In this document: piece by piece, positions 9,837 to 60,689 of the stretch | How positions within the stretch are numbered: position 1 is the first letter of the stretch | Layout of the letters: each line of letters begins with the position of its first letter | Virus record (IMG/VR): IMGVR_UViG_3300029915_000009 | Coordinates: 41,057 to 105,056 of that record | Reading direction: 5' to 3' (one strand) | Length of the DNA stretch: 64,000 nt | Origin: a virus | The notes under the pieces: generated by a model | What the model was told of the DNA's origin: nothing | Databases searched by the model: none | The model's input: the letters and a program-made list of their open reading frames with translations, nothing else | Translations under genes and position numbers: made by a program

Positions 9837-11156
9837 ATGGTTGAGATGAATCACAATGCGATGGTAGCACTAGTCACCCTTAAGAATGCGGGATTTGAAT
9901 CCTACTTCGCGGGTGGTTGCGTGCGAGATTCACTGTTGAATCTTCCGGTTCATGATTGGGATCTGGCCACGAGTGCAACTCCTGATCAGGTCACCGAATT
10001 GTTTTCTACCTCGAAATTGGTTGGTAAGAATTTTGGCGTTTCGGTTGTTAATGTGAATGGTGAGCAGTTCGAAGTTGCAACCTTCCGCGAGGATGGTGCG
10101 TATTCTGACAATCGCCGCCCGGATTCTGTTAAGTTTACAACGGATCCTAGGGAAGATGTTAAGCGCCGTGATTTTACAGTCAATGCACTTCTGATGGACG
10201 AATCGGGCAAGGTATTTGACTTTGTTAATGGCCTTGCCGACCTCGAAAATAAGGTTTTGCGCACGGTCGGCAATCCTAGCGATCGGTTTCAAGAAGATGC
10301 TTTGCGCCTGCTGCGAGCCGTTCGATTTGCAGCTCGTTTGGGGTTCATGCTTGATCCGCTTACCGTGTCCGCAATGACATTGCGTTCGAAGGATGTTACG
10401 ACTTTGCCCGCTGATCGTGTTGCTGGTGAACTGGCAAAGATTCTTACTGGCGGTAATGTACAGGTAGCTTTTCAGACAATGGACACCACCGGTTTGCTAG
10501 TTCATTTTATGCCGGAACTGTGCAATATGCATGGGGTTACGCAGAATTCAATGTGGCATCCGGAAGGCGATGTGTGGCAGCATACAATGAAGATGCTTTC
10601 TATGCTCGAATCCGGCTGCTCTCTTACGTTGGCGCTTGCAACCTTGCTTCACGATGTAGGGAAGCCGGTCACAGCAAAGACAAATGAAAAGACCGGACAT
10701 AATCAGTTTCACGGGCATGAGCACGTTGGGGCTCGTATGGCTGAACGGCTGCTTCGTGATTTTCGGTTTTCAAATGAAGTTGTCGGCACGGTGTCGTCTT
10801 TGGTTGAAAATCATATGCGGTTTTTTAACACGGAAAAGATGTCGTTGTCAAAGATGAAGCGGTTTGTTCGTATGGAAAATTTTTCTGAACTGCTTGAACT
10901 TAACCGGGTTGACAGCCTTGGTAGTAATGGCGATCTCACCGCAAACAATTTTTGCCGTGGGTTTCGCGACAACATGAAGGATGAACTTCATCCCGTTCGT
11001 TTGCTCACCGGAAACGATTTGCTTGCTATGGGATTTAAGGCAGGCCCGGTATTCAAGACTTTGCTAGAAGCGGTCGAAACTGCTCAACTCGAAGGCGTAG
11101 TTACTACAAGGGAAGAAGCGGTAGCGTTGGTTACCGCTTCTTCCGGAAAGGTATAA
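9837..11156 (+). CDS. CCA-adding enzyme / poly(A) polymerase family with HD domain
   Basis: 439 residues. The N terminus carries the class II nucleotidyltransferase signature FAGGCVRDSLLNLPVHDWDLAT (about residues 23-44: GG-x-VRD and the DxD pair), then RDFTVNAL and RAVRFAARLGF, which fit tRNA nucleotidyltransferases. The C-terminal half has an HD phosphohydrolase domain with LLHDVGKP near residue 277. It would add or repair 3' CCA on tRNA-like molecules; the phage tmRNA lacks an encoded CCA. An alternative is a poly(A) polymerase of the same family. Codons are GC-richer than average here. The mRNA is predicted to be leaderless. Confidence 0.88.
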   Translation: MVEMNHNAMVALVTLKNAGFESYFAGGCVRDSLLNLPVHDWDLATSATPDQVTELFSTSKLVGKNFGVSVVNVNGEQFEVATFREDGAYSDNRRPDSVKFTTDPREDVKRRDFTVNALLMDESGKVFDFVNGLADLENKVLRTVGNPSDRFQEDALRLLRAVRFAARLGFMLDPLTVSAMTLRSKDVTTLPADRVAGELAKILTGGNVQVAFQTMDTTGLLVHFMPELCNMHGVTQNSMWHPEGDVWQHTMKMLSMLESGCSLTLALATLLHDVGKPVTAKTNEKTGHNQFHGHEHVGARMAERLLRDFRFSNEVVGTVSSLVENHMRFFNTEKMSLSKMKRFVRMENFSELLELNRVDSLGSNGDLTANNFCRGFRDNMKDELHPVRLLTGNDLLAMGFKAGPVFKTLLEAVETAQLEGVVTTREEAVALVTASSGKV

Positions 11157-13439: not shown

Positions 13440-13471
13440 GTTGTTGCTATATTTTTATTATTGTTGTATAC

Positions 13472-13479
13472 TATAAATA
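13472..13479 (+). promoter_or_regulatory. Perfect T4-type late promoter core (TATAAATA)
   Basis: Exact TATAAATA, 14 nt upstream of the GTG start at 13494, with the Shine-Dalgarno sequence GAGGAAA between. A leadered late promoter in front of the GIY-YIG gene and tmRNA. Confidence 0.65.
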
Positions 13480-13493
13480 TTGAGGAAATAAAA

Positions 13494-14153
13494 GTGAATA
13501 TTAAGGTTAATTGGAATTCGATTGATTCGCTGAAAGGTAAAGTTCGATATTTAAAATCTAGAATTCGAGCGTTAGAAAAGAATGGTCTAGGAGCGGAGAA
13601 TATCGTTAGGCAGGGTCCAAAATTCGAAGCATATAATTCTATATGGAATTCCGATATTAGCTCGATTTATGAAGATTTAGAATTATCAAACGAAAAGAAA
13701 TATTTTGTGTATGCTCACTTGAATCCATTGTTTGATCTTGATTTAGAAAAAGCAAAAGACGCGTTTGCCGCTAGCCTGGGTATGGAGTATGTTCCTTTTT
13801 ATATAGGAAAAGGAGTAAATGATCGTGATAAAAATTCGCGGCGAAATGAAACACATCGAAAAATTTTGCAATCTATAAATTCGTTAAATGAAAAGCATAT
13901 AGTATTTCGAGTTAAAGGAAGTTTAACTGAAGCAGAAGCATTTCAAGCTGAATCTAAATTAATCGATATTTTTGGACTTTTAACTAATGGTGGTTTATTA
14001 ACTAATTTGGATGAAGGGCATCATGCAATACTCAGAAAAAGATTATATCGGGATCATCTTAAGACATTGTGTACTAATTCAGTCGGTTATGCAAAAGTAA
14101 TGAAAGAATTGTATTCGAAACCAATTATGATCAACGAAAAAAAATTTGCATAA
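13494..14153 (+). CDS. GIY-YIG family nuclease (219 aa)
   Basis: GTG start at 13494 chosen because GAGGAAA lies 6-12 nt upstream and the late promoter sits before it. The GIY-YIG core appears as KYFVYAHLNP (strand one) and PFYIGKGVNDR (about residues 99-109), followed by the helix ending in HRKILQSI and later EAEAFQAESKLI with the catalytic Glu. Compact GIY-YIG proteins in phages are often homing endonucleases. It lies directly upstream of the permuted tmRNA gene, possibly as a mobile neighbour of that locus. Confidence 0.8.
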   Translation: MNIKVNWNSIDSLKGKVRYLKSRIRALEKNGLGAENIVRQGPKFEAYNSIWNSDISSIYEDLELSNEKKYFVYAHLNPLFDLDLEKAKDAFAASLGMEYVPFYIGKGVNDRDKNSRRNETHRKILQSINSLNEKHIVFRVKGSLTEAEAFQAESKLIDIFGLLTNGGLLTNLDEGHHAILRKRLYRDHLKTLCTNSVGYAKVMKELYSKPIMINEKKFA

Positions 14154-14155
14154 GT

Positions 14156-14216
14156 TAGAGTCGTACGAAGCATGAATTTCTTTATGCGGACCGGAGTTCA
14201 ACTCTCCGCGCGTCCA
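14156..14216 (+). ncRNA. ssrA: Permuted tmRNA, acceptor piece
   Basis: The T arm is CGGAG-TTCAACT-CTCCG (14192-14208), followed by the 3' acceptor strand CGCGTCC (14209-14215) and a discriminator A. The preceding text GGAC matches the conserved tmRNA sequence before the T arm. P2 3' strands CAUG (14171-14174), UUUC (14177-14180) and UUUAU (14181-14185) pair with 14308-14323 of the coding piece. There is no encoded CCA. The acceptor piece lies before the coding piece in the gene, the order of circularly permuted two-piece tmRNAs. The exact 5' end is uncertain. Confidence 0.85.
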
Positions 14217-14285
14217 AAAGAATACTGAACTAGTTAGATAGTTTCGTATTAGATGGATGTGGTGTTACACCCCAGTATTCTACTA
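14217..14285 (+). other. Intervening segment of the permuted tmRNA precursor
   Basis: Joins the mature 3' and 5' ends. A 9-bp helix AGAATACTG (14219-14227) with CAGTATTCT (14273-14281) closes the loop, bringing the two acceptor strands together for processing. An inner GGTG/CACC hairpin is also seen. It would be cut out, by RNase P on the coding-piece side. Confidence 0.75.
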
Positions 14286-14515
14286 GGGCGCGTCACGGTT
14301 TCGACGGATAAATGAAAGTCATGTGGACGGCTTGGGTCTTTGTTATTTTCGCCCATAATTGAAAAATGATATGTATAATTGCCGATTCAATCGTCAATGG
14401 CGCGACCAAGATTTTTACGTACCCTGTAAAAATTAGCAATCGCGAGCTCGCACTAGCCTAAAAACTGTGCGCCGTAGGGTGACCCCGCCTATGTAAAAGA
14501 AACGGGGTATACAAA
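14286..14515 (+). ncRNA. ssrA: Permuted tmRNA, coding piece with tag frame
   Basis: It begins GGGCGCG (14286-14292), which pairs over all 7 positions with CGCGTCC of the acceptor piece (one G-U), followed by the tmRNA hallmark GGTTTCGACGG (14297-14307). P2 is formed with the acceptor piece. PK1 is an H-type pseudoknot: UGGGU (14333-14337)/GCCCA (14351-14355) and UUAUUUUC (14343-14350)/GAAAAAUGA (14361-14369). The tag frame ends RELALA then UAA at 14459-14461. The likely resume codon is GCC at 14381, 11 nt after PK1 (Ala-Asp-Ser, 26 codons); GCG at 14402 is an alternative (19 codons). A second pseudoknot follows: UAGG (14475-14478)/CCUA (14488-14491) crossed by ACCCCG (14482-14487)/CGGGGU (14503-14508). 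Confidence 0.85.
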
Positions 14516-43124: not shown

Positions 43125-45386
43125 ATGCCAACTGCTACTTCGAACGGATCGCCGTTAATTAAGAATCTTATTGATATTAGTTTTCAGCTTGCTATTAATT
43201 TAGATCAAACAACTATTACTCTCGAACATATTCTTTATGCAAGTTTGTCGTATTCATCTGTCCGGAAGTATCTCGAAAATCAGGGAGTTTCGGTTAGTTT
43301 GATGGCTGAGGCCATCAAAAAGTTTATCGAAGCACAAACTCCTAGACTTCAAAATAAAATTGCCAGTAACGAGCCGAATATTATGACTGGGCAAATTACA
43401 GCCTCGGTGCAAAAAGTTTTAGTTTCGGCTTACTCCGAAGCCACAAAATATGGCAGAGAAGTAACTTTTGGTGATATTTTTCGTAAGTTATATAACGAAA
43501 AGGAGTCGTATGCTAGTTATTTTCTAGAGAAATACGGCATTACTTCCAAAATTATTGACGGACTAGATCAATTAACAACGTCTGATACACAGTCAACTAC
43601 CGCATTAGCTGAATTTTGTGTGAATTTAAATGAAAAAGTTAAAGGTACTACCGATGTGCTAATTGGCCGGGAAATTGAATTGTTTGACATTGCACATGCA
43701 CTGTCGAAGAAGAAAAAGAATAATGTACTTGTGGTTGGGGAACCTGGAGTAGGTAAATCGGAATTAATTGAAGGATTAGCTCGTAATATTAATGCGGGTA
43801 TTGTACCCAGTACTTTAAAAGATAAGATTATTTATAGTCTAGATGTTGGATCGGTTTTAGCCGGTTGCCATTTCCGAGGAGATTTTGAGGAAAAGATTAA
43901 GAATGTCTTAGCCGCATTAGTTAATGAAAAAAATGCCATTCTTTTTATAGATGAGGCTCAACAGATTAATTCCGGAGGCGGCTCAAATGATTCCGGTGTT
44001 GCCTTTTCAGCAATGTTGAAACCTGAACTTAGTCGCGGTAATATTAAAGTTATTGCAGCAACTACATGGGATGGATATACCCAGACATTTAAGAAAGATA
44101 CCGCTCTTATGCGTAGGTTTCGATTGCTTGCTCTAAAGGAACCGAGTAAAGCAGAAACTATTTTAATTCTTCAAGGAGTTAAGAACAGTTTTAATAAATT
44201 CCATAAATGCCGTATTCAGGACGATGCAATCGAAGCCGCAGTCGAATTATCCGTTCGTTATCAGCCAGATCGGCAGCTTCCAGATAAAGCAATTGATCTG
44301 ATCGATTCTGCTTGCGCCCGTAAAACGGTTGCTAAAGATAAGAATAAGCGTATTACAAAATTGGATATTATTCGAGAGATCGAAACTAGTACCGGCATTT
44401 TGGTTAAGACGACTGATCAGAATAACGCGGCCGATATTCTTAATATTCGAGAGACCCTAAATTCAAAAATTTTCCATCAGACACATGCAATTGATAAAAT
44501 TGCCGAGTCCCTAATTATTTCACAAGCCGGGTTGCGAGATCCATCTAAACCCATTGGTAGTTTTTTACTAACCGGCCCTAGCGGCGTAGGTAAATCTTAC
44601 ACCGCAAAGCAACTTGCATCGTATATGAATATGCATTTACTTCGTTACGATATGAGTGAATATCAGGCAGATCACGCAATGGCGACATTAATCGGTGCGC
44701 CCCCTGGATATAAAGGATATGGGGATGGGGATGCAGGAGAAGGCAAACTTATCAACGATTTAATGAAGCATCCAAATTCGGTTATTCTTTTCGACGAAAT
44801 CGAAAAAGCAAATCCAAATTTATACACCTTGCTTCTTCAGATGATGGATGAAGGTACTATTTCAAGTGCCAGTGGAAAAACAGCCGATTGCAAAAATACA
44901 ATTATTATTATGAGTAGTAATGTAGGCAGTCGAGAAAAGAGTAAGATTAATTTAGGTTTTATTCCGGACTCAAATGGCATGAGTGCAGTTACAAAGGCTA
45001 TTAATAATGTTTTCCTCACTGAAATCCGAGGACGCATTACAGCTATGATTGAATATAATAGTTTGGACGATCTTAGTTATCGTAAAATCGCACAAACAAA
45101 AATTGCAGAAATCGCTGCGCTTACCGATAAAAATTTAACTATTATTGCGACTGAAAATCTTATCAGCCATGTGCTCGAGCTAAATAAGAGTAATGAATAT
45201 GGGGCAAGAAAGATTTCTGGTATTATTGATTCTTTAATTAGATATCCACTTAGCGTTAAACTATTAAACGGAATCATTCCAAACGGAGCGACTGTTAATT
45301 TAGATTGGGTGGGTAATAATCTTGTAATTGGAACAGCAATTAATACTTTTCCTATTTCCATTAAGAAACCGGTACAGGAGAAATAA
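43125..45386 (+). CDS. ClpA-like double-AAA+ unfoldase with ClpP loop (753 aa)
   Basis: Length matches ClpA. It has an N domain (LIDISFQLAINLDQTTITLEH and a second repeat), then AAA-1 with GEPGVGKS near residue 206, LFIDEAQQI near 272 and RRF arginine finger text. AAA-2 has GPSGVGKS near 484, the MSEYQADHAMATLIGAPPGY pore region, LFDEIEKA near 553 and the sensor NTIIIMSSNVGS. After this, L610-G611-F612 sits in REKSKINLGFIPDSNG exactly where ClpA has its IGL ClpP-docking loop. No middle domain as in ClpB. It probably feeds phage-selected or ELALA-tagged substrates to host ClpP. Confidence 0.92.
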   Translation: MPTATSNGSPLIKNLIDISFQLAINLDQTTITLEHILYASLSYSSVRKYLENQGVSVSLMAEAIKKFIEAQTPRLQNKIASNEPNIMTGQITASVQKVLVSAYSEATKYGREVTFGDIFRKLYNEKESYASYFLEKYGITSKIIDGLDQLTTSDTQSTTALAEFCVNLNEKVKGTTDVLIGREIELFDIAHALSKKKKNNVLVVGEPGVGKSELIEGLARNINAGIVPSTLKDKIIYSLDVGSVLAGCHFRGDFEEKIKNVLAALVNEKNAILFIDEAQQINSGGGSNDSGVAFSAMLKPELSRGNIKVIAATTWDGYTQTFKKDTALMRRFRLLALKEPSKAETILILQGVKNSFNKFHKCRIQDDAIEAAVELSVRYQPDRQLPDKAIDLIDSACARKTVAKDKNKRITKLDIIREIETSTGILVKTTDQNNAADILNIRETLNSKIFHQTHAIDKIAESLIISQAGLRDPSKPIGSFLLTGPSGVGKSYTAKQLASYMNMHLLRYDMSEYQADHAMATLIGAPPGYKGYGDGDAGEGKLINDLMKHPNSVILFDEIEKANPNLYTLLLQMMDEGTISSASGKTADCKNTIIIMSSNVGSREKSKINLGFIPDSNGMSAVTKAINNVFLTEIRGRITAMIEYNSLDDLSYRKIAQTKIAEIAALTDKNLTIIATENLISHVLELNKSNEYGARKISGIIDSLIRYPLSVKLLNGIIPNGATVNLDWVGNNLVIGTAINTFPISIKKPVQEK

Positions 45387-48472: not shown

Positions 48473-50077
48473 ATGCTTCTTTCTGAATTTGAAACTAGAT
48501 ATCACGAGCTCTGCATATTTCCCGGTGGATTTCACCCATGGTCGGCTGGGCATACCGCAGTATATAATTATCTTAAAAATAAATTTCCAAAGGCAGATTT
48601 ATATGTGGCTAGTTCAAATAAAATGTCTGAGCGACCATTTTCATTTGCAGAGAAGAGATTTTTAGCTGCGCAAGCAGGAGTTCCTGAAGATAAATTTGTT
48701 GAAGTAGTAAGTCCGTATAAATCTACCGAAATAACTGGAAAATATGATTCAGCAAATACCGTTTTAATTTTTGGTTTATCATCGAAAGATCGAGATCGCC
48801 TTGGTTCTCCTATTAAGAAAAATGGGGAACTTTCGTATATGCAGCCATATCCAGTTTCATCTACTACTCCATTGCAGACATTTGATAAGCATGCCTATTA
48901 TGTAGTTGTTCCAGCAATACAATATAAAATACTTGGCCAGAATATTAGCTCTGCTAGTAAGATTCGTGAAATGTATGCAAACGGCTCTGAAACAGACAGA
49001 TATCAAATCATTCAAGAGTTATACCCTAAATCTACGAAAGTTAATAAAATAAAAGTAATACTCGATCGAGTATTATTATCCCCGCCAAAATTAGACGAAC
49101 ATATTGTTAAATTAAAGAATGGAAAATATCGATTGCTTTCCCATAAAGGTAAGAATCTCGGAACTTTTGATAGTCATAGAGCTGACGCAAAACATGAAGG
49201 CGAGGTCGAATATTTTAAAAGTTTAAAAGAAAGTATGACGCCTAATCAAGAAGATAGAATAGTTAGATTTATTAAAACTAATTGCACAGATATTTTGCAA
49301 ATTTATAAAGATCATGATTTTTTATATCGTGGTATTCATTCGGTCGAACCTATTTTATTTGGGAAAGAAGTTAAAAATCGTATGCCGGTAGATTCAAATG
49401 AGAAAGCATCGGAATTATTGGATTCGGCATTATCCAAAGTTGGATTTACTGCATTACGATCAAATAGTATTTTTTGTACGTCGGATAAGTTGATTGCCAG
49501 TAATTATAGTAATGATCATGATAAGACTAATCACGGAAAAGTATATGTTATTTTTCCTTTAAATGGATTTTCATATACCTGGTGTAGAAGAGCACTTGAC
49601 TTAACAGGAAAATTTGGATTACACTACGTTTTGTTTAATGAAGACAATACTTATAGTGATAATTCATTTGTTAATGATTCGATTAATATGCCGGCCAGGG
49701 AATTCACACAAACATATGGTTTTACTAATCTTTTTTTAACCGATGCATTGAATAAAATGTTTGAGGTTTATATTCATGGAAAATATATAGCTGTGGCATT
49801 AAATAATAAAACCTTACTCGATAAAATAATTAAAATTGGGATGAATGAAGTAATAAACTCCAATGATACTCCGGGTTTAGAGATAAGTGAAGCGCAGCTA
49901 ACTTGCCTTCGATGCGATGGAAAAGGATTTACATTAATAAATGGCAAGAAGAAAAAATGCGTATATTGTCATGGTAAGAAGACAATTAATGTGCCAACTG
50001 ATTATCGGCAGAGAGCAGCAAATGATTTTAATGAATCTGTTAATAAAAATGAGAGAATTGCTAAAAATGATTATTAA
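48473..50077 (+). CDS. NMN-adenylyltransferase-like + ART-like + zinc-ribbon fusion (534 aa)
   Basis: Three parts. Residues about 12-200 form a nucleotidyltransferase with CIFPGGFHPWSAGH (HxGH-type motif) and the late ISSASKIREMY signature, as in NMN adenylyltransferases. Residues about 255-440 are the ART-like domain: LYRG with R286, ALRSNSIFC with S330/S332, IFPLNGFSYTW, and E431 in FEVYIHGKY. Residues about 477-505 hold CLRCDGKGF and CVYCHGKK, a DnaJ-type zinc ribbon. One domain could make NAD and the next consume it. The N terminus MLLSEF fits the shared signature. Confidence 0.75.
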   Translation: MLLSEFETRYHELCIFPGGFHPWSAGHTAVYNYLKNKFPKADLYVASSNKMSERPFSFAEKRFLAAQAGVPEDKFVEVVSPYKSTEITGKYDSANTVLIFGLSSKDRDRLGSPIKKNGELSYMQPYPVSSTTPLQTFDKHAYYVVVPAIQYKILGQNISSASKIREMYANGSETDRYQIIQELYPKSTKVNKIKVILDRVLLSPPKLDEHIVKLKNGKYRLLSHKGKNLGTFDSHRADAKHEGEVEYFKSLKESMTPNQEDRIVRFIKTNCTDILQIYKDHDFLYRGIHSVEPILFGKEVKNRMPVDSNEKASELLDSALSKVGFTALRSNSIFCTSDKLIASNYSNDHDKTNHGKVYVIFPLNGFSYTWCRRALDLTGKFGLHYVLFNEDNTYSDNSFVNDSINMPAREFTQTYGFTNLFLTDALNKMFEVYIHGKYIAVALNNKTLLDKIIKIGMNEVINSNDTPGLEISEAQLTCLRCDGKGFTLINGKKKKCVYCHGKKTINVPTDYRQRAANDFNESVNKNERIAKNDY

Positions 50078-51119
50078 TTCATACAATAAGATAACTGAGA
50101 TTAAAATCACGAAAAAGATTAAGAGAGTGGGTAAATTACCTATGAAAAATTATAAGAAATTAAAACCGGGATCAACGGTAGAAGGCGACTTATTTAGTGC
50201 AAATTTAACGCCTAGCAAGAAAATATTGCTAAATCTTTATCCCGCATCAATGCGGGATAAAGATAAACTTCGATTTTTAAAAGTTTGCCGATTTATAGAG
50301 GAGAATTGTAGTGAATATTTAAGATACATGAAAAAATCAAGTTCATTATTATATCGCGGATCACGAGATATAGATCCCAAAACGGTTTATTTTATAGGTG
50401 CTTCACGATTGAATAGACGTCCATTGGATACTCCGAAAAAAATTCAAAAAAATGTGGATGAATTATTATCGCTTGGTGGTTGTAAGGCAATACGATCAAA
50501 TAGTATTTTTTGTATAAGTAACAGTCTGGGTGCAGATGGTTATGGGCATATATTTTGTATTTTTCCTTGTGATGGATTTTCATATACCTGGAGTAAGCAT
50601 GAAGATTGGGAAATATCTGTGGATGATATAATTGATAGCAATATAGAATTTAAAAAATTATTAACTTTATTGAGGAGTTTTTCCGTAGCCTTTCCAGATT
50701 TTTCCGAACTATCAAGAACGGACGGTAGAATAATAGAAAGTATTGAAGAATATTGGTCAGATGCTAGATTTTTTGATGCCTACGACACAGCCGATGTCTT
50801 AGCTAGCATGAATAAAGAATTATTAAAAATTAAAACAACGTTAGATACCTATTGCAAGATTGCTAAAAAATATAAGTTGAATTCAATTTCATCCGCCAAC
50901 ATAAAAACCGCGTACAAACTTATTATGCAGGCAAGTGATCGTAAGCAACAATCAAATAATTTTTTAAAATATCATAACATACGTACTAATAATCTTGATC
51001 AAGCAATGAAAACGAGGAATGAGGTATGTATTTGTGGGCATTATGTAGCAATTAGACAGGATATTCTAGAAATTAATTATGACAAATTATTATGTAAATA
51101 TTTTGGTCTAAAGAAATAA
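50067..51119 (+). CDS. ADP-ribosyltransferase-like protein (350 aa)
   Basis: Start placed at 50067 (MIINSYNKITEIK), overlapping the previous gene by 11 nt; 50049 is an alternative. ART-like blocks: LLYRGS, GCKAIRSNSIFC, FCIFPCDGFSYTW and EVCICGHYVAI near the end, with R, S and E all kept. A helical insertion of about 110 residues separates the NGF block from the Glu block. Located second in the effector cluster. Confidence 0.7.
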   Translation: MIINSYNKITEIKITKKIKRVGKLPMKNYKKLKPGSTVEGDLFSANLTPSKKILLNLYPASMRDKDKLRFLKVCRFIEENCSEYLRYMKKSSSLLYRGSRDIDPKTVYFIGASRLNRRPLDTPKKIQKNVDELLSLGGCKAIRSNSIFCISNSLGADGYGHIFCIFPCDGFSYTWSKHEDWEISVDDIIDSNIEFKKLLTLLRSFSVAFPDFSELSRTDGRIIESIEEYWSDARFFDAYDTADVLASMNKELLKIKTTLDTYCKIAKKYKLNSISSANIKTAYKLIMQASDRKQQSNNFLKYHNIRTNNLDQAMKTRNEVCICGHYVAIRQDILEINYDKLLCKYFGLKK

Positions 51120-51145
51120 TCAGAAATTTTAAAAGCAGTATAACT

Positions 51146-51409
51146 ATGCGAGTAAATGAAATTAACAATTCGAACAAAATTAAATGGACTGGAAAATTAA
51201 CTAACGGTTCAAAAATTTCGGTGTATGTATTATCTGGGTATTGTAAAGGTTTTGGGGAAATTGGTACGGTAATCATGCAAATAATTGGTAATAAGTGGAA
51301 ACCATTTTATCTGTTTGTTGATAAAGATTGGAATAACTCTGACATAAAAACTGAAATATTATCCAGAGTTATTAAAATTATGGATGCCAAGGATGGGCAA
51401 CTGGCATGA
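51146..51409 (+). CDS. Small tagged protein (87 aa)
   Basis: Begins MRVNEINNSNK, close to MRLTEINNSGS of the ART-like gene at 54716, then a beta-rich domain (KWTGKLTNGSKISVYVLSGY, KPFYLFVDKDW). It carries the packaging-like signature with a small unknown domain. No strong ribosome site upstream. Confidence 0.6.
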   Translation: MRVNEINNSNKIKWTGKLTNGSKISVYVLSGYCKGFGEIGTVIMQIIGNKWKPFYLFVDKDWNNSDIKTEILSRVIKIMDAKDGQLA

Positions 51410-51486
51410 TGCCGAATATACAATTAAAACATTGGAAGATTAGTTCTAAATTAAATGAAAAGCAGAAGATTCAATTTTCAAAATAG
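51406..51486 (+). CDS. Possible 26-aa peptide
   Basis: ATGA overlap with the previous stop. MMPNIQLKHWKISSKLNEKQ plus six residues. It could be translated by coupling, but is too short to judge. Confidence 0.25.
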   Translation: MMPNIQLKHWKISSKLNEKQKIQFSK

Positions 51487-51494
51487 GAGATTAA

Positions 51495-51926
51495 ATGAAA
51501 AATTTAGAGGAAGTGCTGGCGGTAGCGACTGCTACGGTGTTACATTATACAATTAAGGTTCATATTGCACACTTTAATATTACTGGCCCGAGATTTTATG
51601 AATTGCATAAATTATTACAACTCATATATGAATCGGTTGATACTGCCTATGATGGGATTGGAGAAGAGATGCGAGCACTTGATATTTTTACTCCCCTCGG
51701 TCTTCAACAAATAATGGGATTATCGGTGTTATCTGATTTTGCTGGTATTTTACCTGCGCAAGAAATGATTCAAGAATTGTTGATTGATAATGAAAAATTA
51801 ATAGAAGTTCTTAATGAAGTTAACGCATCGGCACCCGATCAATTAGGGTTACAAAATTTCGTGCAAGGATTAATCGATTCCCAAGAAAAATTTGCTTGGT
51901 TCCTTCGTTCAACAATAAAACGATAA
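51495..51926 (+). CDS. Dps/ferritin-like protein (143 aa)
   Basis: ATG after ATAGGAGATT. AHFNITGPRFYELHKLLQLIYESVDTAYDGIGEEMRAL (about residues 26-63) follows the Dps ferroxidase pattern: H...G-x-x-F...LH, then D...D-x-x-x-E. The length is near Dps (about 150-165), although the N-terminal DNA-binding tail is short. A phage Dps could protect DNA or remove iron/peroxide after injection. It lacks the N-terminal signature of its neighbours. Confidence 0.65.
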   Translation: MKNLEEVLAVATATVLHYTIKVHIAHFNITGPRFYELHKLLQLIYESVDTAYDGIGEEMRALDIFTPLGLQQIMGLSVLSDFAGILPAQEMIQELLIDNEKLIEVLNEVNASAPDQLGLQNFVQGLIDSQEKFAWFLRSTIKR

Positions 51927-51929
51927 ATA
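51923..51929 (+). promoter_or_regulatory. T4-type late promoter core, start codon 5 nt downstream
   Basis: ATAAATA containing the TAA stop of the Dps-like gene, then TTAAT and ATG at 51935. Confidence 0.55.
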
Positions 51930-51934
51930 TTAAT

Positions 51935-52120
51935 ATGAAGATAAAAGACATAATTCGAGAAAATGGATCAAGCGGGGGAACAAGCTCTGGATCTATATCA
52001 ACTGTTAATAGCCCAATGGGTACACCTCCGGCTGGACAGTTTTTTGGCGGTGACCCTAATTCATCAATTTATTCTCCGATTAAACGACATAGGAAGAAGA
52101 GAAAAAATGCGGTTAAATGA
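51935..52120 (+). CDS. Small Gly/Ser/Pro-rich tagged protein (61 aa)
   Basis: MKIKDIIRENGSSGGTSSGS, then a low-complexity body and a basic end (SPIKRHRKKRKNAVK). IRE would be an I-x-E prohead-protease-like site. Size, basic end and disorder resemble T4 internal proteins packaged with DNA. It ends inside the start of the next gene. Confidence 0.6.
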   Translation: MKIKDIIRENGSSGGTSSGSISTVNSPMGTPPAGQFFGGDPNSSIYSPIKRHRKKRKNAVK

Positions 52121-52745
52121 AATTTTAAATCGAGTTGATTTGCTAAAACCCGGACAGCAATTATCTCTTGCTAGATATAAATCGGATAAATTGCAATCCT
52201 GGATTGTTGAGCATTGCTCCGAATTTTTATCTGTTGCGGGTGATTATAAATTATATCGCGGTATTAAGAACGAAACCCGAGAATCTTTTATTGGCTATTC
52301 TAGGGAAAATCGACCTACGGTTGAATATTATTCAACAGAGGCCGCGGAGAAGGTTGATTTTCTTCTCAAGTTAGCGGGATGGCCGGCTCGACGAAGTAAT
52401 AGTATTTTTTGTAATTCTTTTACCGGGGCGGCGAGATCTTGGGGAGAGGTATATGAAATATATCCTATTAATGGATTTACATTTGGATATAGTAAGGCTT
52501 TTACTAATTGTAATGCGTGCGCATATAATATTCGTCCTAGAATGATGAATGCAGAACATGTAGAAGAATTTTTAGATTACAATGAATTATACAATACTAA
52601 TTTGCAATGGCCATTAATTAATCATTATGATGTTTGGATTCACGGCGCTTATGTTGCTATTAAGCATGAAGAAACCAAAATTAATGCCGATGATTTTAAG
52701 GGTCTACCGGTTAAGTATAACCCAGAAAATGAAGAATTCGACTAA
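52107..52745 (+). CDS. ADP-ribosyltransferase-like protein, Glu replaced by Asp (212 aa)
   Basis: Start at 52107 after GAAGAAGAG; MRLNEI carries the signature. KLYRGIKN near residue 49, ARRSNSIFC near 93, YPINGFTFGY near 120, and DVWIHGAYVAI near 186, where the usual Glu is Asp. The C terminus is acidic. It shares DVW[IV]HGAY[VI]AI with the next gene, so these two are closest relatives. Confidence 0.7.
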   Translation: MRLNEILNRVDLLKPGQQLSLARYKSDKLQSWIVEHCSEFLSVAGDYKLYRGIKNETRESFIGYSRENRPTVEYYSTEAAEKVDFLLKLAGWPARRSNSIFCNSFTGAARSWGEVYEIYPINGFTFGYSKAFTNCNACAYNIRPRMMNAEHVEEFLDYNELYNTNLQWPLINHYDVWIHGAYVAIKHEETKINADDFKGLPVKYNPENEEFD

Positions 52746-52773
52746 ATCAAGATATAGGGAATAGGAGTAAAAC

Positions 52774-53712
52774 ATGTTGATAAATGAGTTAATGCCGGAT
52801 CCCGCTATGCTGAAGCCGAATACATTTTCTTCGATTAACTATACCTCGGCCGCGACTGAGCTAGCCAAAATTGAAAAATGGATTTTTAAAAATTGCTCTG
52901 AATTTTTAAAAGATGCAAAAGAATCTGATAATTATCTATATCGAGGGATAAAAGGCGTTTCGGGTGGATCAACCATTTTTATGGGATATCCTCCAGCAAA
53001 ACGAAAAAGTATCGAACAGCGTTTGGCTAACGATGAAATCGCGAAGGCCGTTAAGTATGCAGATTATTGTATGTCATCTTCTGGATTTACTGCATTGCGT
53101 AGTAATAGTATTTTTTGCACTTCAAGCATTTCTGATGCCGGATCCTGGGGCCGAGTTTTTCTAATATTACCTATTAACGGATTTACTTTTGGGTATAGTA
53201 AAAGATGGACCTGGACTACTGCCAGAGAGTATATATGTCCTTTAGTTGAATTAAAAACGCATGTGCATAGGTTAATAATAGACCAGATACTAGAGTCTGC
53301 ATTTTATAAAAAACAATTCAATACGATAGCTAGTTCAGATATAAAAGTAAAAAAATTTTTAAAAGATGCCTACACTATAGGTACTATTATACAGAATTAC
53401 CATACGATTTATCAGATCCGCGGCAAAATAAATAAAATATTAAAAGAGTTTTATATTTTGGTGCAAAAATATCCTATATTTGAAGAATTTAGAGAAGAGG
53501 CTGATAAAATATCCGAAAAGATTAATTTAGAACCAACTAACCCAGATATAGTAGAAGAATATATGCGGGTGAATGAATTTTATGATACTGATTTAGCATG
53601 GGCGTTGAGTAAAGGGCAAGATGTTTGGGTGCATGGGGCTTACATTGCAATAGATAACGATTGCTACGAAGCCGCAAGACGACGATTTGACTTTTTAAGT
53701 TTGGTGAAATAG
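52774..53712 (+). CDS. ADP-ribosyltransferase-like protein, Glu replaced by Asp (312 aa)
   Basis: AATAGGAGTAA precedes the start; MLINEL fits the signature. Blocks: YLYRGIKG near residue 52, GFTALRSNSIFC near 107, LPINGFTFGYS near 134 and QDVWVHGAYIAI near 290. A helical insertion of about 120 residues separates the last two. Its stop shares TAGTG with the GTG start of the Nudix gene, so the two are coupled. Confidence 0.7.
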   Translation: MLINELMPDPAMLKPNTFSSINYTSAATELAKIEKWIFKNCSEFLKDAKESDNYLYRGIKGVSGGSTIFMGYPPAKRKSIEQRLANDEIAKAVKYADYCMSSSGFTALRSNSIFCTSSISDAGSWGRVFLILPINGFTFGYSKRWTWTTAREYICPLVELKTHVHRLIIDQILESAFYKKQFNTIASSDIKVKKFLKDAYTIGTIIQNYHTIYQIRGKINKILKEFYILVQKYPIFEEFREEADKISEKINLEPTNPDIVEEYMRVNEFYDTDLAWALSKGQDVWVHGAYIAIDNDCYEAARRRFDFLSLVK

Positions 53713-54719
53713 TGAAAAAGAAAAAAACAATTTTAGGATCTGATAAATCGTATAGAAATTCTCAGTGGCTCGGGCCACAAGATAAAGTTGACGAGCTCGG
53801 CCCTATTTTAGGTGCTGAGCCCAAGAAATCAAAAATTTTAAGTACAAAATTTATGGGATGTTCGAGAATTAATATGACTAATAAAAAAGTATTAGCTGAG
53901 ATATATGATGATCCTTCGGATTTTATGTATCTAATGTGGGAAGAATTGCGAGGAAAAAAACCTCGTAAATTAACAATGAATGATATAGTTAATGCGGCTA
54001 CAGAAATCGCCAATACATTTGCTGAGGGTGGCAATATTGGAAGTAAGAAGGAAGATCTCATTTCGTCTTTCCTTCATCGCCCAGATGGTTTTATGCGTAA
54101 AATGAAAAAGAGGGATCTTGTACAAGAAAGTTTAACGTATAATGAATTTGCAAATGCGGATAAAACAGTTGATAAAAAATGTCCAGTTTGTGGAATAACA
54201 TTTAAAAATATTCATTCGACTGACCAGAAATTTTGTTGTGCTGAATGTGAATTAAAAGGTACGATGTCCAATAACTTAGAAGAAGCTTGGGATCGTAGCC
54301 AAATTAAAAAAGCCGGATTTATTCCGTATTACCGAGATAATAACGGCGTAGCTCGAATGTTATTTGTTATTAGCAGCGATCCGTCGTATGGTGGGGACAA
54401 GCCCATGATTGCAAAGGGGCATGTTGATGCTGGTGAAAACGAAATGCAAGCAGGGCTTAGAGAAGCAAACGAAGAATGCGGGTTGAGACCTTCAAATTTG
54501 ATTTCTAACACCGTTAAGATTGGTTGGAAAGGTGAAATAACAGGATATACAGAAACCAGTGAGATGACTATTTTTATTGGGGAAGTAACCGATCCCGTAG
54601 ATTTTGATAAACCTGGTTTTGAAGTTAGTGAAACAAAATGGTTAACCGCCGATGAATTTTATCGGATCGGACGTAAGAGTCAAAGTAACATTGTTAAGGC
54701 CTGCGATGGTAAGATATGA
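53712..54719 (+). CDS. Nudix hydrolase with zinc-finger segment (335 aa)
   Basis: GTG start overlapping the previous stop. A helical N-terminal domain is followed by CPVCGITF and FCCAEC (about residues 156-182), a treble-clef-like zinc site. The Nudix box GHVDAGENEMQAGLREANEE (near residue 236) continues CGL and matches G-x5-E-x7-REUxEE-x-G-U. Nudix enzymes cut NAD, ADP-ribose, capped RNA or Ap4A. In this cluster, turnover of NAD/ADP-ribose or decapping of NAD-RNA is plausible. It overlaps the next ART-like gene. Confidence 0.85.
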   Translation: MKKKKTILGSDKSYRNSQWLGPQDKVDELGPILGAEPKKSKILSTKFMGCSRINMTNKKVLAEIYDDPSDFMYLMWEELRGKKPRKLTMNDIVNAATEIANTFAEGGNIGSKKEDLISSFLHRPDGFMRKMKKRDLVQESLTYNEFANADKTVDKKCPVCGITFKNIHSTDQKFCCAECELKGTMSNNLEEAWDRSQIKKAGFIPYYRDNNGVARMLFVISSDPSYGGDKPMIAKGHVDAGENEMQAGLREANEECGLRPSNLISNTVKIGWKGEITGYTETSEMTIFIGEVTDPVDFDKPGFEVSETKWLTADEFYRIGRKSQSNIVKACDGKI

Positions 54720-55291
54720 GATTAACAGAAATCAATAACTCGGGAAGCGGTAATGATGCAATAATTTCTTTCATTAAAGAAAAGTGTTCTGATATTTTGG
54801 TGCTGTATCGCGAGAATAGAAAAGTTTTATACCGAGGAATAGCGAGTTCCGAGAAGTATTTAATTGACGAGTCACCAGTAAATCGTTTGCCAAGAGATAC
54901 TCCTAGATTTTTATCATTTGCCATCGACGACAAGTTACAAGCGGCCGGGTTTAAGGCATTACGATCAAATAGTATTTTTTGCACGGGTCGGGAGAATGAT
55001 GCTATAGCATACGCCGATGGCGGAAGTTTATATGTAATTTTTCCAGTTAACGGATTCGATTATACATATTGCAAATATCGAGATTTAACAGAAGAAATGG
55101 AATATAATGTTCCTCAAATTCAAAATATGTCAACAGATAAATTTATTAAAGATTTGGAGTTTAAAGATACTGATTTAGGATTTGCTATGCATACCGGAGT
55201 AGAAGTTTACCTTCATGGAAAATATGCAGCAGTTCGTTATAATTCTTTTTCAACATATTGGTTTCAAGACTGGCTTGGAGTAATTATATGA
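54716..55291 (+). CDS. ADP-ribosyltransferase-like protein (191 aa)
   Basis: ATGA overlap with the Nudix gene; MRLTEI signature. VLYRGIAS near residue 41, GFKALRSNSIFC near 79, VIFPVNGFDYTYC near 108 and VEVYLHGKYAAV near 162 with R, S and E all kept. Compact form without insertion; the best candidate for a minimal active member. Confidence 0.72.
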   Translation: MRLTEINNSGSGNDAIISFIKEKCSDILVLYRENRKVLYRGIASSEKYLIDESPVNRLPRDTPRFLSFAIDDKLQAAGFKALRSNSIFCTGRENDAIAYADGGSLYVIFPVNGFDYTYCKYRDLTEEMEYNVPQIQNMSTDKFIKDLEFKDTDLGFAMHTGVEVYLHGKYAAVRYNSFSTYWFQDWLGVII

Positions 55292-55754
55292 GACTTTTGA
55301 AATTAAACAAATTCATTATGATAATTGGCGTTTGCCTAATGATACCGAGTTGCGGAAAGAATTTGATCTCAAACATTTAAATGACAGAGATTATCCTGAT
55401 GTAATTGGATTACCAGATATTAATTGCTGGTCTACCTGGAAAAATGCTAAACTAGCGGTTTTACGGGGCAAAATTGAACGTCTGTCATACGATAATTTTA
55501 ATTCAATTTCTAGATTGACAAATGGTAGTTCTTTGCAGATGATGCAAGATATAAGTTTGTATTATTCTGATTATGTTAGAGATCCATTTAGAATTGCAAG
55601 AGGATTTGAAAATAACGATGCAATTCCTATGGCGATGGTAATAGAACATTATGGTCAACGAGTATTAACGGCAGGGAACACTCGGTTAAATGCAGCTAAA
55701 ATATGTGGGGTTGAGCCATATCCGAAAATTTTAGTTATTCCAGGCGAGGTATGA
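55288..55754 (+). pseudogene. ParB-like tagged gene with apparent 1-nt frameshift
   Basis: ATG 55288 overlaps the previous stop. As written, the frame stops after 30 codons, but one extra T in the run 55295-55298 would give MRLFEIKQIHYDNWRLPNDT and continue to 55754. That restores the shared MRxxEI signature and explains why the long frame (from about 55332) lacks ATG and ribosome site. The C-terminal part VLTAGNTRLNAAKICGVEPY resembles the ParB-like GNTRL/GxHR motif. It could be a real mutation or a sequencing error. Confidence 0.6.
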
Positions 55755-55755
55755 A

Positions 55756-55921
55756 ATGAGATTTGATGAGTTTAACGTGAACAATATTATTGTTAAATAA
55801 TGGAACAGAAAAGATTATTTAATTGATGGTAATCATCGAGTTGTAGCCGCTTAATGGAGTAATAGATTATTAGAATGTCGCTGCCTTACCTGCGATATAT
55901 CATTGATATGGAGCTATTTTA
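55756..55921 (+). pseudogene. Degenerate tagged ParB-like gene with two in-frame TAA codons
   Basis: In frame from ATG 55756: MRFDEFNVNNIIVK, TAA, WNRKDYLIDGNHRVVAA, TAA, WSNRLLECRCLTCD. The signature start and the DGNHRV motif of ParB-like domains are still readable, but both stops interrupt the frame. Each TAA is followed by TGG. TAA is the normal stop elsewhere in this genome, so decay is more likely than recoding. Confidence 0.6.
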
Positions 55922-56779
55922 ATGAGAATAGATGAATTTGCAAAAAAGAAAAAAATTGAAGCAATATATGATCCAATAGAAGCTGCTAGAGAATCCCTAG
56001 AATATTACAAAAAACATGGCACTACGGTTGCTCCTAACGGAACACTTCAGCTTTTTATACCCAGAAAATCAGTATCATATACTACGAAAAAAGAAAGATC
56101 AGATTATTTACTTAAAGATAGGGCAAAATATTCATACGACGATGAGGGGAATCTTACCGATTGGGCGAAAAATTATATTGATACTGCGATGGAGTCTAGA
56201 AATTTAAACGAGGGCGCTCCTGTTATAGCCGGCGGCTCCCCGGTATTACCCGGAAATAATAAACCAGTTGGGGCAATTTTATGGACAAGTACCGCTAAGA
56301 AATTACCAAATGGTAAGTGGACAAGCGGATGGAATAAATTTATACAAGCCTATGGAATGGGAGATTTGGGAATATCTAGGCAAAGTAAAATAGGTTATGT
56401 ATACAAGGTTAAGCCGAACACTGTAGTTTATGAATTAGATTCAACCGATGATGCAAAAATAATTTATGAAATTTTTGAAAAATTGGGCCGTGGTAATTCA
56501 GCATATTTAGATCCTGCAGAATGGGAACGAATAAAATCATACGGGTCTCCGGATGATTTGATTAAAAAAGATTTTCCTTGGCAAGAATTACAGAAGCATT
56601 TTGATTGCATTCATCATTATAATTTCGGGTCATATAGTTATGCTGGTTATGATGGAGCAACACAATTTACGTACGGATATGACTGTGAATCGAGTTGCTG
56701 GTTAAAATCAGATCAATTAGAATTATTAGGGCAAGTTCCTATTTTTCAAGGTGATGAAGATCAAGACGATGACGAGTAA
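55922..56779 (+). CDS. Tagged uncharacterised protein (285 aa)
   Basis: MRIDEF signature, a charged helical N terminus, then a globular part with APVIAGGSPVLPGNN, VGAILWTSTAKKLPNGKWTS and IGYVYKVKPNTVVYELDS. The WTST block followed by a strand and VYELDS recalls a divergent ART fold, but this is only suggestive. The acidic tail DEDQDDDE is notable. No confident family. Confidence 0.6.
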   Translation: MRIDEFAKKKKIEAIYDPIEAARESLEYYKKHGTTVAPNGTLQLFIPRKSVSYTTKKERSDYLLKDRAKYSYDDEGNLTDWAKNYIDTAMESRNLNEGAPVIAGGSPVLPGNNKPVGAILWTSTAKKLPNGKWTSGWNKFIQAYGMGDLGISRQSKIGYVYKVKPNTVVYELDSTDDAKIIYEIFEKLGRGNSAYLDPAEWERIKSYGSPDDLIKKDFPWQELQKHFDCIHHYNFGSYSYAGYDGATQFTYGYDCESSCWLKSDQLELLGQVPIFQGDEDQDDDE

Positions 56780-56789
56780 GGAAGGTAAA

Positions 56790-57380
56790 ATGAAGTTACT
56801 AGAATTTGATGGGTCTCTTAGTAAATTTTCTTATATAATCGAATCAGACTGCTCGAATATTTTAAAAATATTTCGTTCATGTAATAAGGTTTTGTTCCGA
56901 GGAATTAAATCGGAGAAATCTATAATTAACGGTCAATCACCTATTAATAGAAAGCCGATGGATACTACTCTTGATTTGCAAGAGTTAATTGATAGTAAGT
57001 TGCGTGCCGCCGGGTTTAAGGCATTACGATCAAATAGTATTTTTTGCGCAAGTGACTATTTTTCAACTGAGTATTATGGAAACCCTTATATTATTTTTCC
57101 CATTAATGGTTTTGATTTTTCCTTTTGCCGGTATGCTGATTTACATGAAGAACTTAAATTATCGAAGCAGGAGTTAGAAAATTTGTCGCCCGAAGAGTTT
57201 GTATCGACGTTGAAATACAATAACACAAATATTAAAATTGCTCTTAAAAAATCAATGGAAATATGTATACATGGAAATTATATAGCCGTATCATACGACG
57301 AATATAAAAATCAATTAGATAATTTTTTAGATTTTGATATTAAGAAAAATATGCCGAATAAATTCCACTATACAATATAA
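56790..57380 (+). CDS. ADP-ribosyltransferase-like protein (196 aa)
   Basis: Start at 56790 after AAGGAAGG; MKLLEF signature. VLFRGIKS near residue 37, GFKALRSNSIFC near 76, IFPINGFDFSFC near 103 and MEICIHGNYIAV near 159: R, S and E are kept. Closest in layout to the 54716 protein, so probably a tandem duplicate separated by the ParB-like and 285-aa genes. Last gene of the effector cluster. Confidence 0.72.
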   Translation: MKLLEFDGSLSKFSYIIESDCSNILKIFRSCNKVLFRGIKSEKSIINGQSPINRKPMDTTLDLQELIDSKLRAAGFKALRSNSIFCASDYFSTEYYGNPYIIFPINGFDFSFCRYADLHEELKLSKQELENLSPEEFVSTLKYNNTNIKIALKKSMEICIHGNYIAVSYDEYKNQLDNFLDFDIKKNMPNKFHYTI

Positions 57381-57741: not shown

Positions 57742-59397
57742 ATGTCATATATTACAGCTAGAATAGATCGTAAGAATGATCGTATTGAAGTTATCGAACG
57801 AGTCAATGGCAAGAGAGTGTTCAATAATTATCCTGTCGATTATAGTTTCTATATCGATGATCCGAATGGGTCTTATAAATCAATTTATAATACGCCTCTA
57901 ACAAAAATTACCCCTAAAACTTCTAGTGAATTTTACAAAGAACTAGCGATCCTTAAAGGTACAGATAAAAAGATTTGGGAGTCAGATTTAAATCTTACTT
58001 TTAAATGTTTATCGGAAAATTATAAAGGTAAGCCCGCTCCTGATCTTCATGTTGCTCTTATCGATATCGAAGTTGATTTCGATAAGGATAAGGGATACTC
58101 GCCCATCGAGGACCCCTTTAATAAAATAACCGCAATTACAATTGATCTAGTTTGGTGTAATAAACTAATTACTGTAGCAATTCCACCTAAAACTATTACT
58201 TTCGACGAGGGGCAGAGTATAGCAAATAAATTCGAGAACACATATGTGTTCGATAATGAAGTTGATATGCTTAATGCCGCTCTCGATATATTAGAAGACA
58301 GCGATGTTATATCAGGATGGAATAGCGAAGGATTCGATATTCCATATCTTGTTAATCGAATCCAACGAGTGATGAGTAAAGATGATACTCGTAGATTATG
58401 TGAATTATCCTGGAATGAAAAACCAAAGGCTAAAGTAGTTGAAAAATATGGTAAAGAATTTAAGACGTATGAATTAGTTGGCAAGATTCATATCGATATG
58501 ATGGATTTATACCGAAAATTCACATATGAAGAACGTCATTCATATTCATTAAATTCTATTGCTGAATATGAATTAGGAAGTAGTAAGACTGAATATAAAG
58601 GTTCATTAGATGATTTATATAATAATGATTTTGAATTATTTATTAGATATAATAGGCAAGATGTTAATCTATTGGAGCAGTTAGACAATAAATTAAAGTT
58701 TATTGAACTTATTAATGTTGTCGCCCATGATACAACCACTCTTTTACCTACTTGTATGGGAACCGTAGCCAAAACAGACCAGGCTATTATTAATAGAGCC
58801 CATGATTTGGGTATGATTGTTCCAAATAAACCAAAATATAGTTCTCAGAAAGACGATGACGAGCCAGCCGCAGTAGGCGCATATGTAGCCGATCCAAAAG
58901 TAGGAATTCACGAATGGCTAGGTGTAATTGATATTAATTCACTATATCCTAGTACAATTCGTGCATTAAACATGGGAATAGAAACTATTATTGGACAGTT
59001 GCGCCCCACACTTACAGAGGCATTTGTTGCTGAAAAAATGTCACAAAAAGGCATGACTTATTCTCATGCGTGGGAGGGTGTTTTTTCAACTCTAGAATAT
59101 CAGGCGGTTATTGATCGAAAACCTGGCGTAGATATTATTATTGATTGGGAATCAACAGGTACAAGTGATACTCTTTCAGCTTCTCAGATTTATGATATCA
59201 TTTTTTATAGCGATCAGAAATGGATGCTAAGTGGTAACGGAACAATTTTTAGTTATGATCAAGAAGCGATTATTCCTGGATTATTAGCTAAATGGTATGC
59301 AGAAAGAAAAGAACTACAAGCAAAAAAAGAAGAATTTGTAGATTTATCATTTGGTATAACGATACCAGATAATTTAATTGATGCTCTTTCCTCTTAG
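57742..59397 (+). CDS. DNA polymerase family B, N-terminal part (551 aa)
   Basis: Homologous to T4 gp43. 3'-5' exonuclease motifs: ALIDIEVDFD (Exo I, about residue 105), VISGWNSEGFDIPYLVNR (Exo II, near 190), and RYNRQDVNLLEQ (Exo III, near 303). Polymerase motif A is VIDINSLYPSTIRALNMG near 400. It ends after KWYAERKELQAKKEEF and PDNLIDALSS, between motif A and motif B, where the gene is interrupted. The rest is encoded at 60677. Predicted leaderless mRNA. Confidence 0.95.
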   Translation: MSYITARIDRKNDRIEVIERVNGKRVFNNYPVDYSFYIDDPNGSYKSIYNTPLTKITPKTSSEFYKELAILKGTDKKIWESDLNLTFKCLSENYKGKPAPDLHVALIDIEVDFDKDKGYSPIEDPFNKITAITIDLVWCNKLITVAIPPKTITFDEGQSIANKFENTYVFDNEVDMLNAALDILEDSDVISGWNSEGFDIPYLVNRIQRVMSKDDTRRLCELSWNEKPKAKVVEKYGKEFKTYELVGKIHIDMMDLYRKFTYEERHSYSLNSIAEYELGSSKTEYKGSLDDLYNNDFELFIRYNRQDVNLLEQLDNKLKFIELINVVAHDTTTLLPTCMGTVAKTDQAIINRAHDLGMIVPNKPKYSSQKDDDEPAAVGAYVADPKVGIHEWLGVIDINSLYPSTIRALNMGIETIIGQLRPTLTEAFVAEKMSQKGMTYSHAWEGVFSTLEYQAVIDRKPGVDIIIDWESTGTSDTLSASQIYDIIFYSDQKWMLSGNGTIFSYDQEAIIPGLLAKWYAERKELQAKKEEFVDLSFGITIPDNLIDALSS

Positions 59398-59495
59398 TGG
59401 CTTTACGAGTCAAGCCCGTGTGTACTTCACGTGCGTTAGAACGCATTGAATCGCGGTAGTTCACTATGATAAAAACATTATATAGGGATTATTAA
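59398..59495 (+). other. Spacer between polymerase part 1 and homing endonuclease
   Basis: 98 nt with a small stem-loop TGCG/CGCA near 59432. No recognisable group I or group II intron core (no P3-P7 set) can be read here, and the endonuclease ORF overlaps the second polymerase part, leaving no room for a 3' core. Confidence 0.5.
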
Positions 59496-60689
59496 ATGTT
59501 CGATTTATTTTACATGGAAAATATGTTTCGCAATACCGGAAAAGTTAAAAACGAAAGACAATTTATTCGATATTTTAAATTGCTAAAATTTTTACCGCAG
59601 GATTTAGTCAAATCGGGTTTGGGTTCAGTAGAGAAACATCATATTTTGCCGGTGGCGATATTTCCTGAATATAAGCATGAATCCTGGAATATTATCGTTG
59701 TTGAACCTAAAGCTCATTATCTTCTACATTATCTATTATTTAAATCAATTCGTGATCGCAGTTGTATTTACTCATTTAATCAGATGCGCCGTGTCTCAAA
59801 ATCTAGAGGAATTACTAACTGCCGGTTATATCAGGCCGTTCGTATAGAATTTGCAAAACTAATATCTGAAAATAATACCGGGAAAGTGCGAACACAAGAA
59901 CAGCGTGATTATATGTCGAAATTATTTGCGGATACGAATATTTATCGTCATAAAATAACCAAAGAGTTATTACGTATGTCGATTGGATCTCAATCAGATG
60001 AGTGGGAGCCTTTTCAAACAGGTAGAGTGCGTACCCAAGAGTCAAAGGATTTATGCAGCCGGAATTTTACTGGTAAAATATGGCAGTATAATCCTAAAAC
60101 GAGAGAAGTAGCACAAATGCATGAAATTTTACCTGGGTTTGTTAAGGGATACCCCGATTGGTTAAAACACACCGATTATTCATATATAACAGAATCAAGA
60201 TGGGTGTCAAATAATACTACCGGGGAAACTTTAAGAATTAATGAAAATGCGCCACGTCCTGAAGGATTTATCGAAGGAAGAATTTTTAAAAATAAAGGGT
60301 TTGCAACTGCGAATAATCCAAATAATAAAAGAGTATTAGATATTCGTGATAAAAAATTTAAATTAATCGGGAAGAAAGATTTTTCAAATACATATTATCG
60401 AGTAGCGGGCACATCATTGGAAAAAGTAATTGTTGCTAATTTTGAAAATTATTATTTTTTACTTGGTGATTTTTTAAAGTATATGAAATCACGGTGTGCC
60501 TTGCAAAATCATAGTCCCAGGGATTTATCAATACTAAATTTTGTTATTCCCGGCACCACTAAAAGGAAATTTGCTGAACGAATTAGGTTTTCGGAAATAT
60601 ATGGTGGTAAAACATTAAAGGAAATAGGTGTTGTAATGATGCCATTATCTGAGTATAATTATAATAAGGATCATATATGGTGGAAGTAA
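59496..60689 (+). CDS. HNH homing endonuclease inserted in the polymerase gene (397 aa)
   Basis: The HNH core is EKHHILPVAIFPEYKHESWN, followed by AHYLLHYLLF (about residues 46-80). Two NUMOD3-like repeats follow: NTGKVRTQEQRDYMSKL near 129 and TGRVRTQESKDLCSRNF near 176, then a DNA-binding C-terminal half. AGGGATT serves as ribosome site. Its end overlaps the second polymerase part by 13 nt. Mobile endonucleases splitting gene 43 are known in T4-related Aeromonas phages. Confidence 0.85.
   Translation: MFDLFYMENMFRNTGKVKNERQFIRYFKLLKFLPQDLVKSGLGSVEKHHILPVAIFPEYKHESWNIIVVEPKAHYLLHYLLFKSIRDRSCIYSFNQMRRVSKSRGITNCRLYQAVRIEFAKLISENNTGKVRTQEQRDYMSKLFADTNIYRHKITKELLRMSIGSQSDEWEPFQTGRVRTQESKDLCSRNFTGKIWQYNPKTREVAQMHEILPGFVKGYPDWLKHTDYSYITESRWVSNNTTGETLRINENAPRPEGFIEGRIFKNKGFATANNPNNKRVLDIRDKKFKLIGKKDFSNTYYRVAGTSLEKVIVANFENYYFLLGDFLKYMKSRCALQNHSPRDLSILNFVIPGTTKRKFAERIRFSEIYGGKTLKEIGVVMMPLSEYNYNKDHIWWK

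Follow-up and report, generated by a model that had tools for sequence, protein, structure and literature searches.

The window, the whole 64-kb stretch of DNA analysed here, comes from a 105-kb IMG/VR contig of a jumbo-type myophage and carries a circularly permuted tmRNA gene. ARAGORN called a permuted tmRNA with the tag ADSIVNGATKIFTYPVKISNRELALA* as the sole RNA gene in the window. The Rfam model tmRNA_permuted (RF04321) gave the single Rfam match in the 64 kb, at 14159-14461, with 60.3 bits (E 3.5e-9) against a cut-off (gathering score) of 47 bits, and this match ran over model positions 1-213 of 213. Taken together, the two programs place the gene at about 14158-14513. These results confirm that the permuted tmRNA gene on the phage contig is real, in agreement with the original prediction, which had located a circularly permuted two-piece tmRNA of a phage at this site. 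We consider it very likely that this permuted gene of the phage yields a functional tmRNA that rescues ribosomes in infection.

Anatomy of the permuted tmRNA gene

All parts of the gene lie on the + strand. As observed in the RF04321 alignment and in the sequence, the T arm (CGGAG-TTCAACT-CTCCG, 14192-14208) and the 3' acceptor strand (CGCGTCC with the discriminator A, 14209-14216) stand upstream of the 5' acceptor strand (GGGCGCG, 14286-14292), where the coding piece is predicted to begin and RNase P to cut. The strands at 14286-14292 and 14209-14215 form 7/7 acceptor pairs, including G3-U70, the alanine identity pair. AAA follows the discriminator, and CCA is not encoded. The upstream arms of P2, which belong to the acceptor piece, were located at 14158-14164, 14170-14175, and 14177-14185 (with 14187-14188; span 14158-14188) by duplex energy and the RF04321 pairs, and the downstream arms that pair with them lie at 14305-14333. 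The resulting duplex of about 22 bp had an energy of -24.8 kcal/mol, compared with -12.1 +/- 2.7 kcal/mol for shuffled sequences (0 of 2000 shuffles as good), and it beat all 1727 other 35-mers of the window. The intervening sequence (IVS; 69 nt, 14217-14285) is closed by a 9-bp helix (14219-14227/14273-14281), and the D-loop-equivalent hallmark GGTTTCGACGG was found at 14297-14307, both in the sequence and by RF04321. Folding the region 14156-14336 with no constraints (z = -3.6) recovered the acceptor stem, the T arm, and P2 in the centroid, along with the 9-bp helix of the IVS. The T arm and 3' acceptor strand ahead of the 5' strand, the 7-bp acceptor stem, the P2 split in three blocks, the hallmark, and the closed IVS had all been proposed from the sequence, and each was recovered here.

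The tag frame ADSIVNGATKIFTYPVKISNRELALA-stop occupies 26 codons at 14381-14461; it is open, starting with an Ala codon and ending with a stop codon. The original prediction had left the resume codon between GCC 14381 and GCG 14402. We assign it to GCC 14381 because both ARAGORN and RF04321 place it there, in the context of UAANU followed directly by GCN that is shared with other phage tmRNAs, and GCG 14402 was discarded. The in-frame tag ending in RELALA before the stop, as first proposed, agrees with the ARAGORN frame, with RF04321, and with this conserved context. PK1 (14334-14365; 14334-14337/14351-14354 crossed by 14346-14350/14361-14365) and a post-tag H-type pseudoknot (14473-14507; 14473-14478/14488-14493 crossing 14483-14487/14503-14507) were likewise part of the prediction. 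Both can be drawn, being read from the sequence; stem 1 of PK1 appears in the free fold too, and the post-tag pseudoknot lies outside the coverage of the Rfam permuted model.

The tmRNA region is base-identical in the IMG/VR contigs 3300028859_000030 and 3300028854_000022. Scanning with a pattern built on its acceptor, T arm, and IVS recovered identical copies alone. A DNA search with the tmRNA region in named phages gave no match, and promoters and terminators near the gene were not better than in shuffles. The covariance-model search that had been suggested as a check on the prediction placed both pieces under RF04321 above its cut-off, and none of the alpha, beta, and cyano lineage models (RF01849-RF01851) reached cut-off. 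Because the best of them, beta_tmRNA (RF01850), scored 34.6 bits against a cut-off of 84, the window tmRNA was given no lineage. Its RF04321 score was the lowest among the phage cases scored.

The missing CCA, the tag end, and the ClpA-like unfoldase

Four features had gone unnoticed in the original prediction: CCA is absent from the gene, the contig encodes both a CCA-adding enzyme and a ClpA homologue, and the tag has an odd LALA end. For comparison, we used 69 deduplicated permuted phage tmRNAs, taken from the matches listed in one IMG/VR pattern scan and from related records. All 69 of these matches have 7/7 acceptor pairs and keep the discriminator A and G3-U70, with the other acceptor bases varying. 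In the 51 long-IVS members among the matches listed, the 3' end is encoded as CCA in 48, CCG in 2, and AAA in the window tmRNA, the only one of the 51 in which CC is not encoded. The absence of CCA is not unique to the window phage as such, because short-IVS, cyanophage-type phage tmRNAs also lack an encoded CCA.

A gene for a CCA-adding tRNA nucleotidyltransferase of 439 aa (9837-11156, + strand; PolyA_pol E 2e-36; PHROG 2244 E 2e-75) sits 3 kb upstream of the tmRNA; the enzyme scores just under the cut-off of the NCBIfam CCA families. Since no tRNA gene was found on the entire 105-kb contig, the tmRNA is the only encoded substrate seen for this enzyme, and it is possible that the phage enzyme matures the CCA-less tmRNA. 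The contig is a fragment, and so SmpB or tRNA genes may lie elsewhere in the genome. CCA-adding enzymes are also encoded by the cultured phages Tunturi_5 and Phosso, and the link between enzyme and tmRNA is not specific because Tunturi_5 has the enzyme together with a CCA-encoding tmRNA. Co-occurrence of the enzyme with CCA-less tmRNAs across phages was for the same reason uninformative.

As judged from its sequence, the window tmRNA probably works as a rescue RNA. Following established two-piece tmRNA biology, we infer that one transcript would fold with both acceptor strands paired and that host tRNA enzymes would excise the 69-nt loop, with RNase P cutting at G14286 and the 3' tRNA nuclease near 14216, after which the two pieces would stay joined through the acceptor stem and P2. 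Unlike in its relatives, CCA would then be needed, and the phage CCA-adding enzyme would probably add it, the host enzyme being a possible source as well. Host AlaRS would charge the tmRNA via G3-U70, and with host SmpB and EF-Tu, stalled ribosomes would be rescued during infection with addition of (A)ADSIVNGATKIFTYPVKISNRELALA. The tagged chains would pass to a Clp-type protease, and they may be read by a phage ClpA-like unfoldase that docks on host ClpP.

This unfoldase, an AAA+ protein of 753 aa, is encoded at 43125-45386 (+ strand), 29 kb downstream of the tmRNA, and matches E. coli ClpA (1ksf, E 5e-132) and PHROG 4871. We call it ClpA-like, not ClpA, because it reached 630 bits against the cut-off of 993 for the NCBIfam equivalog TIGR02639. 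Alignment to 1ksf and the sequence revealed two AAA+ modules and no M domain, and both Walker sets and a GYxG pore loop are present. The ClpP-docking [LIV]-G-[FL] loop is LGF, in KINLGFIPD. SmpB and ClpP were not found on the 105-kb contig; the LGF motif is kept although no ClpP was found there. PHROG 4871 proteins are common to many jumbo phages, and an obligate pairing of ClpA with tmRNA was rejected, as a permuted tmRNA occurred in 7 of 45 ClpA-bearing records (many of them fragments) and in 1 of 6 isolates. Because the CCA-adding enzyme and ClpA genes are both common in jumbo phages where a permuted tmRNA was not found, the roles given to them here are proposed ones.

The RELALA end, with its penultimate Leu and final Ala, is unique among the 53 distinct phage tags in the matches listed, 35 of which end in AA. 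Without a LAA end of the ClpX type, the tag could avoid host ClpXP, the chains being spared or sent to the phage ClpA-like protein. Such an avoidance is compatible with a functional tmRNA, the difference lying in what becomes of the tagged chains; the unique ALA end and the ClpA homologue of the phage speak for it. Nevertheless, LVA-ended tags are degraded well in E. coli, so that a penultimate Leu need not stabilise, and phage ClpA is present in many jumbo phages, including PA5oct, GAP32, and Atu_ph07, where a permuted tmRNA was not found. We regard ClpXP avoidance as unlikely. Even more doubtful is a re-coded branch run by the phage, in which the tmRNA would be inactive until the phage CCA enzyme finishes it and RELALA would be read by the phage ClpA-like protein and not by host ClpX, the host tmRNA possibly being one-piece.

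Cyanophage-type tags (L060, L071, and L073) end in TRELATA, near the NRELALA of the window, with the remainder unrelated; from the letters of the tags, this likeness could possibly be convergence on the tag end. Two other permuted calls by ARAGORN (L022 and L104) have odd tags with no Ala start, VPAAGPDQNPALPRFRWEPK and GPSEPAQAGFVVSDGSRRPVAAAQ, which are perhaps wrong frame calls.

Phage context and host

The carrier of the tmRNA is a large soil-type phage. The contig encodes baseplate, tail-fibre, and virion genes, ThyX, a QueD-like PTPS, and PhoH. Judged by DNA polymerase, its nearest isolates are all jumbo phages, namely Sinorhizobium phage Phosso (43%), the PA5oct group, and Atu_ph07. The family B DNA polymerase (57742-61885) is apparently interrupted by an HNH homing-endonuclease ORF (59496-60689), which leaves it as two ORFs. 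Several paralogues of PHROG 11975 (function unknown) form an expanded gene family at 48473-57380 and at the right end of L007, and a NUDIX ORF (53712-54719) lies among them.

Directly upstream of the tmRNA, a GIY-YIG homing-endonuclease-like ORF (13461-14153, + strand) ends a few bases before P2; this assignment is probable and weak (PHROG 314 E 3.6e-5; Pfam GIY-YIG 19.7 bits, below cut-off). In a related 195-kb contig (G552), homologues of two flanking genes are ~1.1 kb apart, with ORFs and no tmRNA between them, which places the window tmRNA in a variable segment. The adjoining ORF and this empty equivalent in G552, as well as the AAA in place of CCA, the atypical tag end, and the low RF04321 score, would also fit a decaying hitch-hiker. 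On this view a permuted tmRNA was captured, perhaps along with the homing-endonuclease-like gene, and has since been drifting, with its CCA and canonical LAA end lost. However, 7/7 acceptor pairs, a P2 of about 22 pairs, an intact hallmark GGTTTCGACGG, and an open tag of 26 codons are unexpected in a drifting copy, and decay appears very improbable.

Which bacteria the nearest isolates infect varies with the gene compared: Alphaproteobacteria, Pseudomonas, or Acidobacteriota. The suggestion in the original prediction of a host phylum without permuted tmRNA is not supported by these differing hosts, and a foreign host phylum is no more than conjectural for the window phage. Assigning an acidobacterial host on the strength of the CCA enzyme was rejected, as the Tunturi_5 stretches compared matched no more than 4 of 106 ORFs.

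Permuted tmRNAs in other phages and in bacteria

Two cultured phages were found to carry unannotated permuted tmRNAs, both of which ARAGORN missed. In Tunturi_5, a phage of Tunturiibacter (Acidobacteriota), the gene lies at PP885688.1:157899-158195 on the minus strand (RF04321 86 bits) and encodes a tag of 34 residues, AKNSPVVRGTAKVLSFARKFVPAVSSTRAFAMAA, ending in FAMAA; tmRNA goes unmentioned in the main text of the Tunturi_5 paper. In Sinorhizobium phage Phosso, it lies at PV764938.1:349596-350198 (RF04321 113 bits). A low-resolution tree, built from a short alignment of P2 with the tRNA-like part, loosely grouped the window tmRNA with Tunturi_5 and long-tag phages (support 0.90). Tunturi_5 also shares with the window a long tag with a K[VI][LF][ST][FY] core and a CCA-adding enzyme with 47% identity, but it differs in its encoded CCA, its 34-residue FAMAA tag, its 43 tRNA genes, and the few matching ORFs. 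Phosso has the closest isolate homologues of the window DNA polymerase and of the ClpA-like protein (36%), whereas its tmRNA match spans 603 bases at the higher score and its host is alphaproteobacterial.

RF04321 exceeded its cut-off in 13 of 396 Acidobacteriota genomes. By ARAGORN, 12 of the 13 loci are standard one-piece tmRNAs, mostly beside a tRNA-Asp just upstream and two with odd tag calls; at the thirteenth (L233), ARAGORN finds just the neighbouring tRNAs, and we judged it to be the same case. Thus, a standard tmRNA next to a tRNA-Asp gene is a systematic false "permuted" call of RF04321 (L225-L237), Acidobacteriota were rejected as a source of permuted tmRNAs, and none was confirmed in the 396 genomes. 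The same error, the T arm of a tRNA beside a standard tmRNA, is refuted for the window and retains practically no probability, since no tRNA lies upstream, the window has no RF00023 match over cut-off, and its two acceptor strands pair 7/7 with each other. In the Acidobacteriaceae, the host family of Tunturi_5, a standard tmRNA was over cut-off in 117 of 150 genomes. Given this and the absence of confirmed permuted forms in the phylum genomes, Tunturi_5 and its host very probably differ in tmRNA form, so that phage rescue RNA and tag could be distinguished from those of the host in one infected culture, making the question of why phages carry such RNAs directly testable.

The window locus offers further handles on why phages carry ribosome-rescue RNAs, in a CCA that must be added post-transcriptionally (with a CCA enzyme and no tRNA on the contig), a tag end novel among the compared phages, and a ClpA-like unfoldase. 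The available text of a study on huge phages (PMC7162821) lists tmRNA, SmpB, CCA-adding enzyme, and QueD, the same classes of translation genes as in the window phage, but with SmpB, of which there is none on the window contig; the permuted form is not described for tmRNAs in that text. Two-piece forms account for 53 of 133 phage tmRNA structures, mostly marine (PMC9004378; Melnitz 2022), and our IMG/VR pattern scan found at least 119 stretches with a phage permuted tmRNA. The original claim that a permuted tmRNA on a phage is unusual in itself is weakened by this published and abundant occurrence. The genes of Methylophilales phage Melnitz and of other marine phages resemble the window gene in being a permuted ssrA whose tag frame is intact (PMC9004378). 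They are of an alphaproteobacterial/SAR11-like, marine type, and Melnitz also has a glutamine riboswitch (PMC9004378), whereas the window gene sits on a jumbo-type myophage and does not encode CCA, and its tag of 26 residues ends in LALA. Among bacterial forms, the betaproteobacterial two-piece tmRNA (RF01850) gave the best lineage alignment, end to end, but its model encodes CC(A), unlike the window tmRNA. The window tmRNA is a somewhat aberrant member of the already known phage two-piece tmRNAs.
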